Assembly (NCBI RefSeq): GCF_019916085.1
Contig: NZ_CP049834.1
Coordinates: forward strand, 1,998,501-2,062,500
Direction: 5' to 3'
Source: Aquirufa lenticrescens
GTDB lineage: Bacteria; Bacteroidota; Bacteroidia; Cytophagales; Spirosomataceae
DNA length: 64,000 bases
The notes under the pieces were generated by a model. The model saw only the letters and a list, made by a program, of their open reading frames with translations. It did no database searches and was not told the DNA's origin. The position numbers were made by a program, and so were the translations under genes. Of this stretch, positions 32,665 through 41,338 are shown one piece after another (the first letter of the stretch is position 1; every line of letters begins with the position of its first letter).

Positions 32665-32850
32665 AAAAAGCAATTTTTTGTTCGACCTGCAAGTTAAGAA
32701 AAATCGTTCGAAGGCGGTAGAATTATTTTTCTTGGTAACGAACCCAATAAATATGGTATTTTTTTAAGTTTTCCCAAATAAAATGCGGTATTCGATGCGA
32801 TTTTCACAATATATTTAGCATTTTTGTTAGAATCTCCTACTTTATTGATT

Positions 32851-35800
32851 ATGCCAAAATCATACGTTAAGAAAATCTCCAGTTTATTGATCGCTAACCG
32901 CGGCGAGATTGCTATTCGCATTATGCGTGCTGCTTCCGAATTAGGTATTCGGACCGTGGCCGTATACACGTTCGAAGATCGCTATTCTTTACACCGCTAT
33001 AAAGCGGATGAAGCCTACCAAATCGGGAAAGATGATGAACCTTTAAAGCCTTACTTGGACATCGAGGGCTTGATTTCTTTGTGTAAATCAAAGAAAATTG
33101 ACGCTATTCATCCGGGATATGGTTTTTTGTCGGAAAACGTAGTGTTGGCGACACGTTGTAGAGAAGAAGGAATCGTTTTCGTGGGTCCTTCACCGGAAGC
33201 AATGAACGCGTTGGGTGATAAAGTAGCTGCTAAAGTGGCTGCATTGAAGGCCAATGTTCCTATGATTGAGGATTCGAAAGGGGATTTAGCTGATTATTCT
33301 TTGGCTCTATCCGAAGCGAAACGCATTAAATTCCCTGTGATGGTAAAAGCGGCTGCCGGTGGTGGTGGACGAGGAATGCGCGTAGTGAGAACGGAAGAAG
33401 AGCTAGAAAAAGCGTATCAAGAGGCGAAGAATGAGGCGAAAAATGCGTTTGGAGATGATACTTTGTTCATCGAGAAATTCATCGATGATCCGAAGCACAT
33501 CGAGGTACAATTATTAGGAGATCAGCACGGAAATTTGGTGCATTTGTACGAACGGGATTGTTCGGTACAAAGACGTTTCCAAAAAGTGGTCGAAATTGCC
33601 CCCTCTTTTGGTCTAAAAGAAGAAACAAAACAGAAATTATACGCTTACGCGCTTTCCATCGGTAAAGCAGTAAACTATTATAACGCAGGAACGGTGGAGT
33701 TTTTGGTCGATAAAGACGAAAATATCTATTTCATCGAGGTAAATCCGCGTATTCAAGTAGAACATACGATTACGGAAGAGGTGACAGGCATCGATATTGT
33801 CCGCACACAGATCCTAATCGCCCAAAATTACAAGTTATCCGATCCAGGTATTTTCATCCAAAACCAAGCGGACATTCCGCTAAAAGGTTTTGCAATTCAA
33901 TGCCGTATCACGACAGAAGATCCAGCAAATGGATTTAAACCGGATTTTGGAACGATCATCGCCTACAGAAATGCAGCTGGTTTCGGGATTCGTCTAGACG
34001 AAGGATCTTCGTATCCAGGGGTAAAAATTTCCCCTTATTTTGATTCGATGTTAGTGAAGGTGTCTGCCAAAGGACGTACGCTTCGCGGTGCGTCCGAACG
34101 ATTAAACCGCGCGCTGACCGAATTCCGAATCCGTGGCGTAAAAACGAACATCCCTTTCTTGCGTAACGTCATCACGCATCCGGTCTTCCAAGAAGGCCAC
34201 TGCACGGTGCCATTCATTGCGAACCACCCGGAATTATTCAATTTTAAACCCACTCGCGACCGCTCTACAAAGGCGATTCGCTACCTGGGAGAAGTAATCG
34301 TTAACGGAAATCCGGATGTGAAAGTGAATCCAACGGCTCCTTTCCGCACTCCAATTATCCCGTATGTGGATCCGATGGCGGAATACCCGAAAGGAAACAA
34401 ACAATTATTGACTGAAATGGGTCCGGAGAAATTTGCGAAGCACATCCGTGATGCGAAGCAAATCTATTTCACGGACACCACGTTCCGTGATGGACACCAA
34501 TCGCTTTTAGCCACCCGCGTTCGTACGCAAGATATGTTAGCCGTAGCTGACGGATTTGCGAAATCCTTCCCTCAATTGTTCTCGATGGAGGTTTGGGGTG
34601 GCGCGACCTTTGATGTGGCGATGCGTTTCTTGCAAGAATCTCCTTGGAAACGTCTGCAAGAATTCCGCGAGGCGATGCCGAATATGCTATTGCAAATGCT
34701 TTTTCGCGGCTCAAACGCCGTGGGATATTCCGCTTACCCAGATAATTTGATTGAAAAATTCGTGGAGAAATCCTCCGAAGCCGGAGTCGATGTCTTCCGA
34801 ATTTTCGATTCCTTGAACTGGATTGACGCGATGAAAGTGTCGATCAAAGCGGTTCGGGAACGCACGCCGGGCATCGCAGAAGCAGCCATTTGCTATACGG
34901 GCGACGTCTTCACAAATGTAAAATACAATCTGCAATATTACGTGGATATGGCGCGTCAGCTAGAAGATGCCGGCGCACATATGTTGTGTATAAAAGATAT
35001 GGCGGGACTTTTACGTCCTTTCCAAGCGGAGAAATTAGTAACTGAATTAAAGAAAGCGGTTGATTTACCTGTTCATTTGCACACGCACGATACGGCTTCT
35101 GTTCAATCAGCGACGTATTTAAAGGCTATTGAAGCAGGTGTGGATATCGTGGATGGCGCGTTAGGGGCGATGTCCGGTTTGACGTCTCAGCCTAATTTGA
35201 ACTCTTTAGTAGCCATGATGCAGGGTCACCCGAAAGCATCCGATTTGAATTTAGACTTACTAAACGAATATTCTAATTATTGGGAAGCGGTGCGTACGAT
35301 GTATACGCCGTTCGAATCCGAATTGAAAGCGGGAACGGCTGAAGTATACAATAATGAGATTCCAGGTGGACAATACACGAATTTACGTGGTCAGGCGATT
35401 GCGCTGGGTGTAGGCGACAAGTTCGAGCAATTGAAGCGCAATTACACGGAGGCGAATACGCTTTTTGGCGATATTGTGAAAGTTACACCATCTTCGAAAG
35501 TGGTAGGGGATATGGCGATCTTTATGACCGCGAATTCGTTAACGGCGGAGGATGTGTATGCCAAAGGCGCTACTTTATCTTTCCCTGAATCCGTTAAAGA
35601 TTTCTTCAAAGGTGGCCTAGGCCAGCCTTACCAAGGATTCCCGAAACAGTTACAGGAAATTATCTTAAAAGGTGAACACGCCATCGAAGGTCGTCCAAAC
35701 GACCATTTGGCACCGATTGATTTCGATGCTGACTTCAAGTCCTTTACGAAGAAATTCCCAGAGGCGGAGGATGGATTCTTCGATTACTTATCGTACAAAA

Positions 35801-36711
35801 TGTACCCGAAAGTCTACGAAGATTATTACAAGAATTCGGCCTTATTCGGTGAATTATCAGCCCTTCCTACACCAGCCTTTTTCTATGGCTTAAAACAGGA
35901 TGAGGAGATTATGATCACGATCGAGCCAGGTAAAACCATCATCGTGAAGTTCTTGTATATGTCAGAACCAGACGAGTCAGGGTTACGTAACGTGACTTTT
36001 GAATTGAATGGCCAGGCACGCCGCATTAAGATTTTGGACAAAAACGTCAAAGTTGAACGCGCGCAACATGCGAAAGCAAAAGTAAAAGGCGACATCGGTG
36101 CTCCATTACAAGGACGTTTATCACGTATCTTAGTGAAGCCAGGCGACGAGGTGAAATTAAACGCCCCACTGTATGTGATAGAGGCGATGAAGATGGAATC
36201 GATTGTTTCGGCACCATTTGAGGGAATTGTGGGGAACGTATTATTAACAGAAGGAACGGTAGTGGAGCAAGAGGATTTGGTATTAACTCTAGAAGAAGCC
36301 AAACTACCAGAACCAGATGTGGAAGAATACTTATTCGTATACGGGACGTTACGACGCGACTGTGGAAACGATTTACACCGCCTTATTGCGCGTAATTCGG
36401 ATTACATAGGCATGGCGACTTACCAAGGGCAAATGTATCAAGTCGCTGATTACCCTGGTATTATTCCGTCAGAAGACGCAAAAGATCAAGTAATAGGCGA
36501 ATTGTATTTATTGTCCAACACAATCAAATTATTGAACGTGTTAGACGAGTATGAGGAATACAATGCCGACAAGCCTGCAGATAGTCTATTCGTACGTGAG
36601 CAAGTGAAAGTAAGTTTAAAAGGCAAGGAAATCGAAACCTACGCGTATTTATATAACAAGAAAATCGACCCGAAAACGCGTATCGCGTCAGGGGATTATG
36701 TGAAAGGTTAA
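32851..36711 (+). CDS. pyc: Pyruvate carboxylase fused to a gamma-glutamylcyclotransferase-like domain
   Basis: A 1286-residue protein. Domains in order: biotin carboxylase (about 1-455; LLIANRGEIAIRIM, ATP-grasp AAAGGGGRGMRVV), carboxyltransferase (about 525-800; FTDTTFRDGHQSLLATRVRT, HLHTHDT), PC-specific tetramerisation region, and a biotinyl domain with EAMKMES (Lys1114). This full enzyme ends near residue 1150. The frame continues without a stop into about 129 residues beginning EEYLFVYGTLRRDCG, the YGTL signature of GGCT/AIG2 folds, with a candidate catalytic acidic residue in LDEYEEY. The ATG at 32851 is used; a TTG nine codons upstream is less likely. The core makes oxaloacetate; the role of the extra domain is unknown. 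Confidence 0.93.
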   Translation: MPKSYVKKISSLLIANRGEIAIRIMRAASELGIRTVAVYTFEDRYSLHRYKADEAYQIGKDDEPLKPYLDIEGLISLCKSKKIDAIHPGYGFLSENVVLATRCREEGIVFVGPSPEAMNALGDKVAAKVAALKANVPMIEDSKGDLADYSLALSEAKRIKFPVMVKAAAGGGGRGMRVVRTEEELEKAYQEAKNEAKNAFGDDTLFIEKFIDDPKHIEVQLLGDQHGNLVHLYERDCSVQRRFQKVVEIAPSFGLKEETKQKLYAYALSIGKAVNYYNAGTVEFLVDKDENIYFIEVNPRIQVEHTITEEVTGIDIVRTQILIAQNYKLSDPGIFIQNQADIPLKGFAIQCRITTEDPANGFKPDFGTIIAYRNAAGFGIRLDEGSSYPGVKISPYFDSMLVKVSAKGRTLRGASERLNRALTEFRIRGVKTNIPFLRNVITHPVFQEGHCTVPFIANHPELFNFKPTRDRSTKAIRYLGEVIVNGNPDVKVNPTAPFRTPIIPYVDPMAEYPKGNKQLLTEMGPEKFAKHIRDAKQIYFTDTTFRDGHQSLLATRVRTQDMLAVADGFAKSFPQLFSMEVWGGATFDVAMRFLQESPWKRLQEFREAMPNMLLQMLFRGSNAVGYSAYPDNLIEKFVEKSSEAGVDVFRIFDSLNWIDAMKVSIKAVRERTPGIAEAAICYTGDVFTNVKYNLQYYVDMARQLEDAGAHMLCIKDMAGLLRPFQAEKLVTELKKAVDLPVHLHTHDTASVQSATYLKAIEAGVDIVDGALGAMSGLTSQPNLNSLVAMMQGHPKASDLNLDLLNEYSNYWEAVRTMYTPFESELKAGTAEVYNNEIPGGQYTNLRGQAIALGVGDKFEQLKRNYTEANTLFGDIVKVTPSSKVVGDMAIFMTANSLTAEDVYAKGATLSFPESVKDFFKGGLGQPYQGFPKQLQEIILKGEHAIEGRPNDHLAPIDFDADFKSFTKKFPEAEDGFFDYLSYKMYPKVYEDYYKNSALFGELSALPTPAFFYGLKQDEEIMITIEPGKTIIVKFLYMSEPDESGLRNVTFELNGQARRIKILDKNVKVERAQHAKAKVKGDIGAPLQGRLSRILVKPGDEVKLNAPLYVIEAMKMESIVSAPFEGIVGNVLLTEGTVVEQEDLVLTLEEAKLPEPDVEEYLFVYGTLRRDCGNDLHRLIARNSDYIGMATYQGQMYQVADYPGIIPSEDAKDQVIGELYLLSNTIKLLNVLDEYEEYNADKPADSLFVREQVKVSLKGKEIETYAYLYNKKIDPKTRIASGDYVKG

Positions 36712-37445
36712 TGAAAAAAATTGCCCTTTTTTGTTTGTTGTCACTCGCTTTACAGGCGCAGAGTCCTTTGTTGAAAGCGCACGCACACAATGATTACGAA
36801 CACGAAAGGCCGTTTTTTGACGCTTTTCAGCTTGGTTTTGGCTCCATTGAGGCGGATGTGTATGCGGTGAATGGTCAATTATTAGTCGGTCACGAACGAA
36901 ATCAACTTAGCCTGAATCGCAATCTGAAGGATTTGTATATCGATCCTATCATCCGTGTTTTGAAGGCGAATAAAGAGGGTAATTTTCATCAATTATTGAT
37001 TGATTCGAAGACCTCCGCAGATTCCACTTTGCCCTTGATTATTGCCGCCTTGAAGCCTCACGCTGAAATCATCCAGCAAAAAGGATTCCGAATTGTGATC
37101 TCCGGAAACCGTCCTAAACCCTCGCAATACATCGAATCACCCGCTTGGATCACCTTTGATGGACACTCTGATGAGCGTTTTCCCACGAATAAAGTGGTGT
37201 TAGAGAGTGAATCGATGTTGAAGTTTGGCTTTTGGGGTGGGCAGGGACCTATTCCTGCAGCTTTGAAGGAAAAGCTTAAAAATTATGTCGATCAAGTCCA
37301 TGCAAACGGTCGAAAAGTCCGTCTTTGGGCTACGCCAGATTCTCTTTTAGGATATCAAGCTCTTTTAGATATCGGTGTGGATTATATCGGTACCGATAAG
37401 CTGAGTCTGTTGGCGGATTATTTGAAATTTAGCGAGAGTAAATAA
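36711..37445 (+). CDS. Secreted glycerophosphodiester/PI-phosphodiesterase-like protein
   Basis: A 244-residue protein with a signal peptide (KKIALFCLLSLALQAQS) and a TIM-barrel of the PLC/GDPD superfamily. The block AHAHNDYEHERPFFDAFQLGFGSIEADVY has the catalytic first His and the Glu/Asp metal ligands, and VGHERNQL follows with the second His. The C-terminal RLWATPD block is also typical. It would cleave phosphodiesters in the periplasm or outside; the substrate is not known. Its ATG overlaps the pyc stop (TAATG). Confidence 0.82.
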   Translation: MKKIALFCLLSLALQAQSPLLKAHAHNDYEHERPFFDAFQLGFGSIEADVYAVNGQLLVGHERNQLSLNRNLKDLYIDPIIRVLKANKEGNFHQLLIDSKTSADSTLPLIIAALKPHAEIIQQKGFRIVISGNRPKPSQYIESPAWITFDGHSDERFPTNKVVLESESMLKFGFWGGQGPIPAALKEKLKNYVDQVHANGRKVRLWATPDSLLGYQALLDIGVDYIGTDKLSLLADYLKFSESK

Positions 37446-37481: not shown

Positions 37482-38360
37482 ATGACAACTAGACGCGAAT
37501 TCTTGGCCATTACCTTGGCTACCACACTTCCTATATCATCTCTTTTTGCTGCGAATAAATCCTATTCTTTAGGTTATTCTTCCATTACATGGAGCGGTCA
37601 AGATGAGCTAGCCATTAAAGAAATTTCAAGTCTAGGTTTTAAAGGCATTCAATTAAGAGCCAATACTTTTGCTAAATACGGTGAAAATCCGGCAGCATTG
37701 AAGGCCTTGATTGATCAGGCTGGTTTGCAATTATGTATGTTTTCGAGTGGTAATGTGGAGATTGATCCTGCTAAAGTAGACGCCTCCATCGCACAACATG
37801 TTAAGCATGCTAACTTTGTAAAGACTCTGGGTGGTACTTCCATTCAATTGACGAATTCTCTACGTAAGAAAGGGGTGAAGCCGGAGGAGAAAGACTTAAT
37901 TCGTTTAGCCGAAGTCATGAATGAGATCGGTGCTAAAACGAAGGAAATCGGAATTCAAGCTACTTACCACAATCATATGGACCAGTTTGGAGAGACTCCC
38001 GAAGAAGTTGAATTGCTTGTAAATCATATGGATCCTAGTAAAATTAGATTGCTTTTAGATGTAGCCCATTATTTCCAGGGTGGCGGTAATCCAGCGGAAG
38101 CGGTATTAAAATACCGTAAAGTATTGCATTCTCTTCATGTAAAAGATGTACGCCAAACCGAGCCTCGCTACCGTTTCGTTGAATTAGGGCAAGGGAAAGT
38201 GAATTTAGAAGAAGTGTTTGCTAATTTGGACAAAATCAAGTTCAAAGGCTTCGCCATCGTTGAATTAGATGCTGTTCCAGATGCAGGTAAAACACCATTA
38301 TCTTGTGCTGAAACCAGTAAGGAATTTTTAAAAGGTAAAATTCACTATCCTTTTTCTTAA
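37482..38360 (+). CDS. Sugar phosphate isomerase/epimerase family protein, exported
   Basis: A 292-residue AP-endonuclease-2-like TIM barrel. The N-terminus MTTRREFLAITLATTLPISSLFA is a Tat-like signal. Metal-site blocks are YHNHMDQFG, LLLDVAHYFQGG, SLHVKDV and AIVELD. Exported members often occur in keto-sugar or inositol pathways, in line with the Gfo/Idh and DUF1080 genes elsewhere in the window, but no direct link is shown. It lies 36 bp after the phosphodiesterase gene, with a hairpin between them. Confidence 0.85.
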   Translation: MTTRREFLAITLATTLPISSLFAANKSYSLGYSSITWSGQDELAIKEISSLGFKGIQLRANTFAKYGENPAALKALIDQAGLQLCMFSSGNVEIDPAKVDASIAQHVKHANFVKTLGGTSIQLTNSLRKKGVKPEEKDLIRLAEVMNEIGAKTKEIGIQATYHNHMDQFGETPEEVELLVNHMDPSKIRLLLDVAHYFQGGGNPAEAVLKYRKVLHSLHVKDVRQTEPRYRFVELGQGKVNLEEVFANLDKIKFKGFAIVELDAVPDAGKTPLSCAETSKEFLKGKIHYPFS

Positions 38361-40385: not shown

Positions 40386-40419
40386 AAAAAAGGGCTTCAG
40401 AAATGAAGCCCTTTTTTTT
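40386..40419. terminator. Bidirectional intrinsic terminator
   Basis: Six A residues, a perfect GGGCTTCA / TGAAGCCC stem with a short GAAA loop, then eight T residues. It serves the convergent LolA-like and isomerase genes, and its T run touches the isomerase stop codon at 40418. Confidence 0.9.
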
Positions 40420-41338
40420 AGGGTAAAAATTGTTGAATATGATTTCGGGCACTTCGAATCGCTTTGTCAATATCCTCTTCTGAACCTTCATAGGCCTTAT
40501 CCTCTACTTCAATCACGATCGGACCTTGATAACGAACATCGTTCAAGGCAGAAATAAACTTACCCCAATGTATATCTCCTAAGCCTGGAATTTTAGGGGA
40601 ATGGTATTCGAGAGGATTGGCTAATATTCCAACCCGGTTTAACTTCTCGGGATACACTTTGACATCCTTTAAATGCACGTGGTGAATCCGATCCGCATAG
40701 TGGTAAATAGGGTAGGTGTAGTCCATCATTTGGAAAACCATATGGGATGGATCATAATTGAGTCCAAAATTCGCCGACGGAATAATTGTAAATAATTCAT
40801 CCCAAATCTTAGGGGTAGTCATCAAATTCTTTCCACCTGGCCACTCATCATCTGTGAAAAACATCGGACAGTTCTCGATACCAATTTTGATCTGTAGTGA
40901 ATCGGCTAAGGCAATTATTTCCGGCCAAACCTCCGCAAAGCGACCAATGTTGTATGTTACATTCTTTGTGTAATCACGTCCTACAAAGGTATTCACACGC
41001 GAAATGCCTAAAACGGCTGCTGCATTAATGACTTTTTTGATGTGCTCTCGGTAAAAAGCAGCTTGTTTTTCATCTGGATCCAATGGATTTGGATAATAGC
41101 CTAGAGCGGATATTTTAACTGAATGCTGCGCTAATTTCGCTTTCAAGACTAATAAATCCTCCGTGGATAGTTGGTCTACCGAAATATGGGAAACACCTGC
41201 ATACCTACGCGCATCGGCAGAGGAAGAAGGCCAACACATCACTTCTACGCAAGCAAATTGTTGCTGCTGGGCATAGTCTAATACCTCAAACAGACTTTTG
41301 TTTGGAAGAATCGCTGAAACAAATCCGAGATCTAGCAT
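40418..41338 (-). CDS. Sugar phosphate isomerase/epimerase family protein, cytoplasmic
   Basis: A 306-residue xylose-isomerase-like TIM barrel without a signal peptide. Metal-ligand blocks are IGIENCPM (Glu), LNYDPSHM (Asp/His), HHVHLKDV and IVIEVED (Glu). SALGYYPNPLDPD and FVGRDYTKNV are typical of a subgroup found near Gfo/Idh oxidoreductases. The exact sugar is unknown. It is separated by one base from the TM220 gene upstream. Confidence 0.85.
   Translation of the reverse strand: MLDLGFVSAILPNKSLFEVLDYAQQQQFACVEVMCWPSSSADARRYAGVSHISVDQLSTEDLLVLKAKLAQHSVKISALGYYPNPLDPDEKQAAFYREHIKKVINAAAVLGISRVNTFVGRDYTKNVTYNIGRFAEVWPEIIALADSLQIKIGIENCPMFFTDDEWPGGKNLMTTPKIWDELFTIIPSANFGLNYDPSHMVFQMMDYTYPIYHYADRIHHVHLKDVKVYPEKLNRVGILANPLEYHSPKIPGLGDIHWGKFISALNDVRYQGPIVIEVEDKAYEGSEEDIDKAIRSARNHIQQFLP

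Follow-up and report, generated by a model that had tools for sequence, protein, structure and literature searches.

Few multidomain enzymes have been studied as thoroughly as pyruvate carboxylase, the architecture of which is generally regarded as invariable. The joining of a biotin-dependent carboxylase to a second enzyme has a precedent in urea amidolyase, in which urea carboxylase is joined to allophanate hydrolase, with the partner using the product of the carboxylase. In enzymes of the GGACT (gamma-glutamylamine cyclotransferase) family, a gamma-glutamyl group cyclises through attack of its alpha-amine on its gamma-carbonyl, so that 5-oxoproline is formed and an amine or amino acid is set free, and gamma-glutamyl-epsilon-lysine is one of the compounds on which these enzymes act. 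To our knowledge, the physiological substrates of the bacterial GGACT/AIG2 proteins are mostly unknown. The catalytic site of the mouse enzyme, as given in the excerpted text of PMC2954230, is formed by Tyr7, Gly8, Thr9, Leu10, Ile50, Glu82, Tyr88, Tyr115, and Tyr143.

In the window, the whole stretch of 64,000 nucleotides of Aquirufa lenticrescens DNA analysed here, a gene for pyruvate carboxylase runs on, in the same frame, into a GGACT domain. Its product shares with the single-chain pyruvate carboxylases (NF009554/TIGR01235) all of their domains over the full length, far above the curated cut-offs, but carries the extra C-terminal GGACT domain, whereas the chains of 20 unfused relatives extend to the biotinyl domain or only slightly past it. 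The tail, in turn, shares with the GGACT/AIG2-like proteins (PF06094; mouse A2LD1, 1vkb; human, 3jub) the profile family, the YGTL motif, and the counterparts of Glu82 and Tyr115, and differs from the mouse enzyme in having Phe as the Tyr88 counterpart, in missing, as aligned, the insert that bears Ile50, and in being joined to another enzyme. The solved structures nearest to the tail by sequence profile are Escherichia coli YtfP (1xhs) and Bacillus subtilis YkqA (2qik), which, in contrast with the tail, are not joined to a carboxylase and have no Glu at the catalytic column as aligned. Like urea amidolyase, the fusion joins a biotin-dependent carboxylase to a second enzyme, but its two parts have no known intermediate in common, and the second enzyme follows the C-terminus of the carrier.

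Given its domains, the product is probably bifunctional, the biotin domain being followed by a tethered gamma-glutamyl(amine) cyclotransferase whose activity, substrate, and coupling are predictions. Searches of open-licence papers found no description of the fusion, and the accessible portion of PMC3199775, on the evolution of biotin-dependent carboxylases, makes no mention of it; its proposal as an undescribed fusion in an earlier, sequence-only reading of this DNA is thus upheld within that literature, while automatic annotation may already show it.

The fusion gene and its parts

The features of the locus, in window coordinates, are as follows.

32851..36711, + strand: pyc-GGACT fusion gene, 1286 amino acids, from ATG at 32851 to TAA at 36709-36711
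32851..36294, + strand: complete pyruvate carboxylase part, residues 1-1148 (NF009554 at 7-1148, TIGR01235 at 12-1148, and Pfam domains)
36094..36291, + strand: biotinyl (BCCP) domain, residues 1082-1147 (PF00364)
36190..36192, + strand: Lys1114 in the motif AMKM, invariant across 22 aligned sequences
36295..36330, + strand: linker of 12 residues (1149-1160) with a conserved LPEP stretch
36331..36702, + strand: GGACT (gamma-glutamylamine cyclotransferase-like) domain, residues 1161-1284 (PF06094)
36340..36351, + strand: YGTL motif, residues 1164-1167, in 21/21 fused and 20/20 stand-alone copies
36553..36555, + strand: Glu1235, counterpart of the catalytic-site Glu82 of GGACT by the 1vkb alignment (role from the excerpted PMC2954230), in 21/21 fused and 20/20 stand-alone copies
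36589..36591, + strand: Phe1247, at the GGACT Tyr88 position, Phe in 21/21 fused copies; the 20 stand-alone copies have Tyr (18) or Phe (2)
36646..36648, + strand: Tyr1266, counterpart of GGACT Tyr115, in 21/21 fused and 20/20 stand-alone copies

An alternative start of the gene is the TTG at 32824. The carboxylase part scored 1681.8 bits with NF009554 (cut-off 965) and 1620.5 bits with TIGR01235 (cut-off 1114.45), and contains the biotin carboxylase, HMGL-like carboxyltransferase, PYC_OADA, and biotinyl domains of Pfam. By these profiles and the AMKM motif, this part is an ordinary, complete pyruvate carboxylase, with predicted catalysis. The sequence-only reading had placed the biotin lysine at residue 1114, the end of the enzyme near residue 1150 with the frame running on, and a LDEYEEY motif near 1230, all of which agree with the present coordinates: AMKM includes Lys1114, which we take to be the biotin-accepting lysine from family knowledge, the carboxylase models stop at residue 1148 and are followed by the 12-residue linker and the GGACT domain, and LDEYEEY occupies residues 1231-1237. 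The same reading had named PF06094 and PF13772 as candidate families for the tail. The Pfam search matched PF06094 far above its cut-off (78.1 bits against 22.8; E = 1.1e-21 with the full-length protein as query and 1.6e-23 with the tail alone), and PF13772 gave no match to the fusion protein at E values up to 0.1.

The fusion is genuine and under selection, and is confirmed. The source genome is a single contig of 2,505,188 bases in which the tail is the sole GGACT match, and the tail was found in 37 of 38 Aquirufa genomes, with an internal stop in none. Open frames of 1288-1341 amino acids were present in 31 of these 37 genomes, and the remaining six frames (204-1092 amino acids) start or stop at contig ends, judged by their coordinates. 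PYC_OADA was recovered in 36 of the 38 genomes (17/17 in one sample and 19/21 in the other); one of the two remaining genomes, which is 89% complete, has neither a tail nor a pyc match, and in the other, which gave no match to PYC_OADA, the tail lies at the end of a contig. The frameshift or assembly error hiding a stop at 36300-36330, which the sequence-only reading had named as one way in which it could be wrong, is rejected on this basis, and a chance match is excluded by the profile score and the conservation of the tail across eight genera.

The production of a separate GGACT protein from an internal start is disfavoured. No ATG was present in any of 40 sequences between 22 codons before and 2 codons after the F of FVYGTL, and GTG or TTG codons, present in 38 of the 40, occur at no position common to all, with the two other sequences having neither codon in the stretch scanned. 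Five MAGs deposited as Spirosoma fluviale carry an Aquirufa-type tail (73-91% identity), and the name on these MAGs looks wrong.

The stop of the fusion gene is overlapped by one base by the ATG of an AHNDYEH-type open reading frame (36711-37445, + strand), which had no Pfam match at 1e-3 and is presumably PI-PLC-like, judging by eye. This frame lies 2-51 bases after pyc in all seven loci examined from Aquirufa and one other fused genus (g30). The remaining 13 fused loci, two of them with short flanks, did not show it. Two genes for xylose-isomerase-like TIM barrels (PF01261), at 37482-38360 (+ strand) and 40418-41338 (- strand), lie a short distance apart, near a gene for an MFS transporter.

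Distribution and descent of the fusion

In a survey of 150 sampled genomes of the family, in which GGACT was found in 144 and pyc in 90, the fused status was read from the coordinates and frame of the two matches. The fusion was present in 35 genomes of eight genera, that is, 17 of Aquirufa, eight and five of two further genera (g36 and g2), and one each of the other five (g6, g10, g11, g28, and g30). Two of these 35 genomes have short frames, with both matches sharing the frame length and the contig. The eight genera yielded 54 pyc matches, 36 of them from Aquirufa and 18 from the seven others, and every one runs into the tail, with no split or loss. In each of the 35 fused genomes, the fused copy is the single GGACT match (E 0.001). 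Among the 55 family genomes with an unfused pyc, by contrast, 53 have a GGACT match outside pyc, and one of the two that have no match is only 63% complete.

Beyond the family, the order survey of 291 genomes (85 with GGACT) recovered GGACT frames of approximately 1290 amino acids in Spirosomataceae only. In the phylum survey of 395 genomes (96 with GGACT), the match in the window was the only one in such a frame; one other genome had a weak match (22.7 bits) in a frame of 6170 amino acids, with its PYC_OADA match on a different contig. The phylum sample also contained 24 PYC_OADA matches above 220 bits, in frames of 1150-1309 amino acids, of which only that of the window exceeds 1204, and this bears out the earlier statement that pyruvate carboxylases usually have no such tail. 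These surveys are partial samples within the phylum, and a second origin of such a fusion may exist outside them. In six genomes of one family (f26), a single in-frame TAA lies inside the GGACT match, which represents either decay or a shorter version ending at the TAA.

The carboxylase tree, built from 41 rows (21 fused carboxylases plus 20 from the 55 genomes with an unfused pyc), placed the fused rows on one side of a branch with support of 100/100. In the tree of the GGACT domain, also of 41 rows (21 tails and 20 stand-alone copies), the tails again fell on one side of a branch (100/98), and they remained together (99/97) in a 70-row tree to which 29 matches from the phylum search were added. 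The fused carboxylases thus form one clade, and the tails likewise.

The origin of the tail itself is less clear-cut. The 20 stand-alone copies have 27-38% identity to the tail, and a profile of the fused tails scored up to 118.7 bits in other classes of the phylum, against 77.7, 64.1, and 62.1 bits for the three same-family stand-alone copies in the phylum sample. The higher scores in other classes may reflect a horizontal gain of the tail. In the 70-row tree, the tails have two sequences from a different class as their nearest rows (90/89, short of the starred level), and in the 41-row domain tree this place is taken by one same-family stand-alone copy (95/84). A joining of operon neighbours through the loss of a stop, in which unfused relatives would still show the original gene order, is unsupported, given that no GGACT frame was found in flanks of approximately 1-2 kb at any of 20 unfused pyc loci, with the same query recovering the stand-alone copy in 20/20 loci retrieved for it, and no carboxylase match was found in flanks of 1.5 kb or less at 23 stand-alone GGACT loci, some of which come from genomes with no pyc at all.

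A GGACT match was also present in 56 of the 60 family genomes that have no pyc, which argues that the GGACT function does not need the carboxylase. This count, together with the 53 of 55 unfused genomes with GGACT outside pyc, opposes the tie to anaplerosis suggested in the sequence-only reading, at least in a necessary or obligate form. The same counts indicate that the job of the domain is independent of the carboxylase, and, with the vertical descent of the fusion in one clade, they favour an account in which the joining simply provided one transcript and one protein, with the GGACT domain working as before, uncoupled from the carboxylase. The retention of the tail by all 54 pyc matches of the eight genera, with neither a split nor a loss, speaks against this account, which we consider distinctly unlikely.

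Conservation and active site of the tail

The tail is under purifying selection, and is less constrained and changes faster than the carboxylase part. In a comparison of 20 sequences (190 pairs, with pairs outside a dS of 0.05-1.5 dropped), the tail had a median dN/dS of 0.052 (range 0.014-0.166 over 50 pairs), and carboxylase residues 535-1154 had one of 0.012 (range 0.002-0.033 over 59 pairs). The residues that are invariant in the 21 fused and 20 stand-alone copies include Y1164, G1165, T1166, L1167, D1232, E1235, R1249, Y1266, and G1281. Others are invariant in the fused copies only, such as R1168, L1175, H1176, N1182, Q1192, E1233, E1236, and D1282, and occur in 0 to 9 of the 20 stand-alone copies.

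Profile alignment with 1vkb provided tail counterparts for Tyr7 to Leu10, Glu82, Tyr88, and Tyr115, so that, of the nine site residues listed in the excerpted PMC2954230, six are identical in the tail, one is changed from Tyr to Phe, and two cannot be aligned: the mouse enzyme has Ile50 in an insert for which the tail, as aligned, has no equivalent, and Tyr143 lies beyond the aligned part. By its profile and core motif, the tail is a member of the GGACT family with one conservative change (Tyr88 to Phe), in keeping with its earlier assignment as a GGCT/AIG2-type domain with a YGTL loop and a catalytic-type Glu. The retention of this Glu is not a given, since YtfP and YkqA have no Glu in that column of the profile alignments. 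The Phe at the Tyr88 position, together with the two unalignable residues, is counted against an assured activity on the GGACT substrate. AlphaFold models based on alignments of close relatives only had mean pLDDT values of 33 and 38, too low for a structural reading.

This pattern of conservation also bears on the possibility that the tail is a ligand sensor, which would bind a gamma-glutamyl compound or a related metabolite and slow or speed the carboxylase from behind the biotin carrier. Such a role would fit the placement of the tail, which is separated from the biotinyl domain by no more than a short linker containing the conserved LPEP, the invariance of the fused tails at positions where the stand-alone copies vary, and the Phe found in all of the fused copies. 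The catalytic Glu, however, would be dispensable for sensing, yet it is kept in 21/21, and the fused copy, as the only GGACT match of the cell, is probably also doing the job of the stand-alone protein. In the carboxylase, moreover, only 10 of 1150 positions are near-fixed (at most one exception per side) for different residues in the fused and unfused proteins, and these are scattered over six of eight stretches, so that there is no sign of a new interface. Taken together, the evidence makes a sensor unlikely.

Candidate roles of the tail

In the bifunctional reading, which we favour, the GGACT domain on its short linker would most likely still be enzymatic, with Glu1235 assisting the attack on the gamma-carbonyl and the YGTL loop holding the substrate. 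A single joining event, in the common ancestor of Aquirufa and the seven further sampled genera, would have placed behind pyc either an ancestral stand-alone gene or a copy gained from elsewhere, and the descendants would produce no GGACT domain other than the one attached to the carboxylase. The retention of the Glu, and the lack of any GGACT match in the cell besides the fused copy, suggest that the tail took the ancestral function along with it. Catalysis by the tail is most likely. Its inferred substrate is an amine or a peptide bearing a gamma-glutamyl group, and the inferred benefit of the fusion is that the domain would always be expressed and located together with the carboxylase, not that it would control the carboxylase.

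A role directed at the carboxylase itself, in which the tail clears gamma-glutamyl groups from the biotin lysine or reports gamma-glutamyl status to anaplerosis, is improbable, although it would couple the chemistry of the glutamate pool to the supply of oxaloacetate in one polypeptide. The first of these forms, the removal of stray gamma-glutamyl groups from the biotin-accepting lysine, draws on the chemical likeness of gamma-glutamyl-epsilon-lysine to lysine-linked acyl groups, on the amide that the carrier bears on the epsilon-amine of its lysine, and on the adjacency of the tail to the carrier domain. Biotin, however, has no alpha-amine for cyclisation and would not itself be a substrate, GGACT is common in genomes with no pyc, and the termini of the biotin carrier domain lie opposite the end that bears the biotin-lysine. 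This form is purely conjectural, and we rate it as highly improbable.

A clade of at least eight genera has retained this added domain, which looks catalytic and is the one GGACT copy found there. The fusion may thus connect gamma-glutamyl metabolism with anaplerosis in a natural system that is open to testing, and may offer an approach to the role of the bacterial GGACT/AIG2 proteins.

The recycling of 5-oxoproline, which is inconsistent among the fused genomes, counts against the bifunctional reading. Markers of 5-oxoprolinase (the PxpA family and Hydantoinase_B, each a single-subunit marker) were searched for in 20 genomes, 10 fused and 10 unfused, and PxpA was found in seven and Hydantoinase_B in nine of the 20. 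The fused genomes comprise two with PxpA, four with Hydantoinase_B, and four with neither, while each of the 10 unfused genomes has exactly one of the two. A link of the fusion with 5-oxoprolinase is therefore unsupported. Gamma-glutamyl transpeptidase was present in 19 of the 20 genomes, and is common regardless of the fusion.
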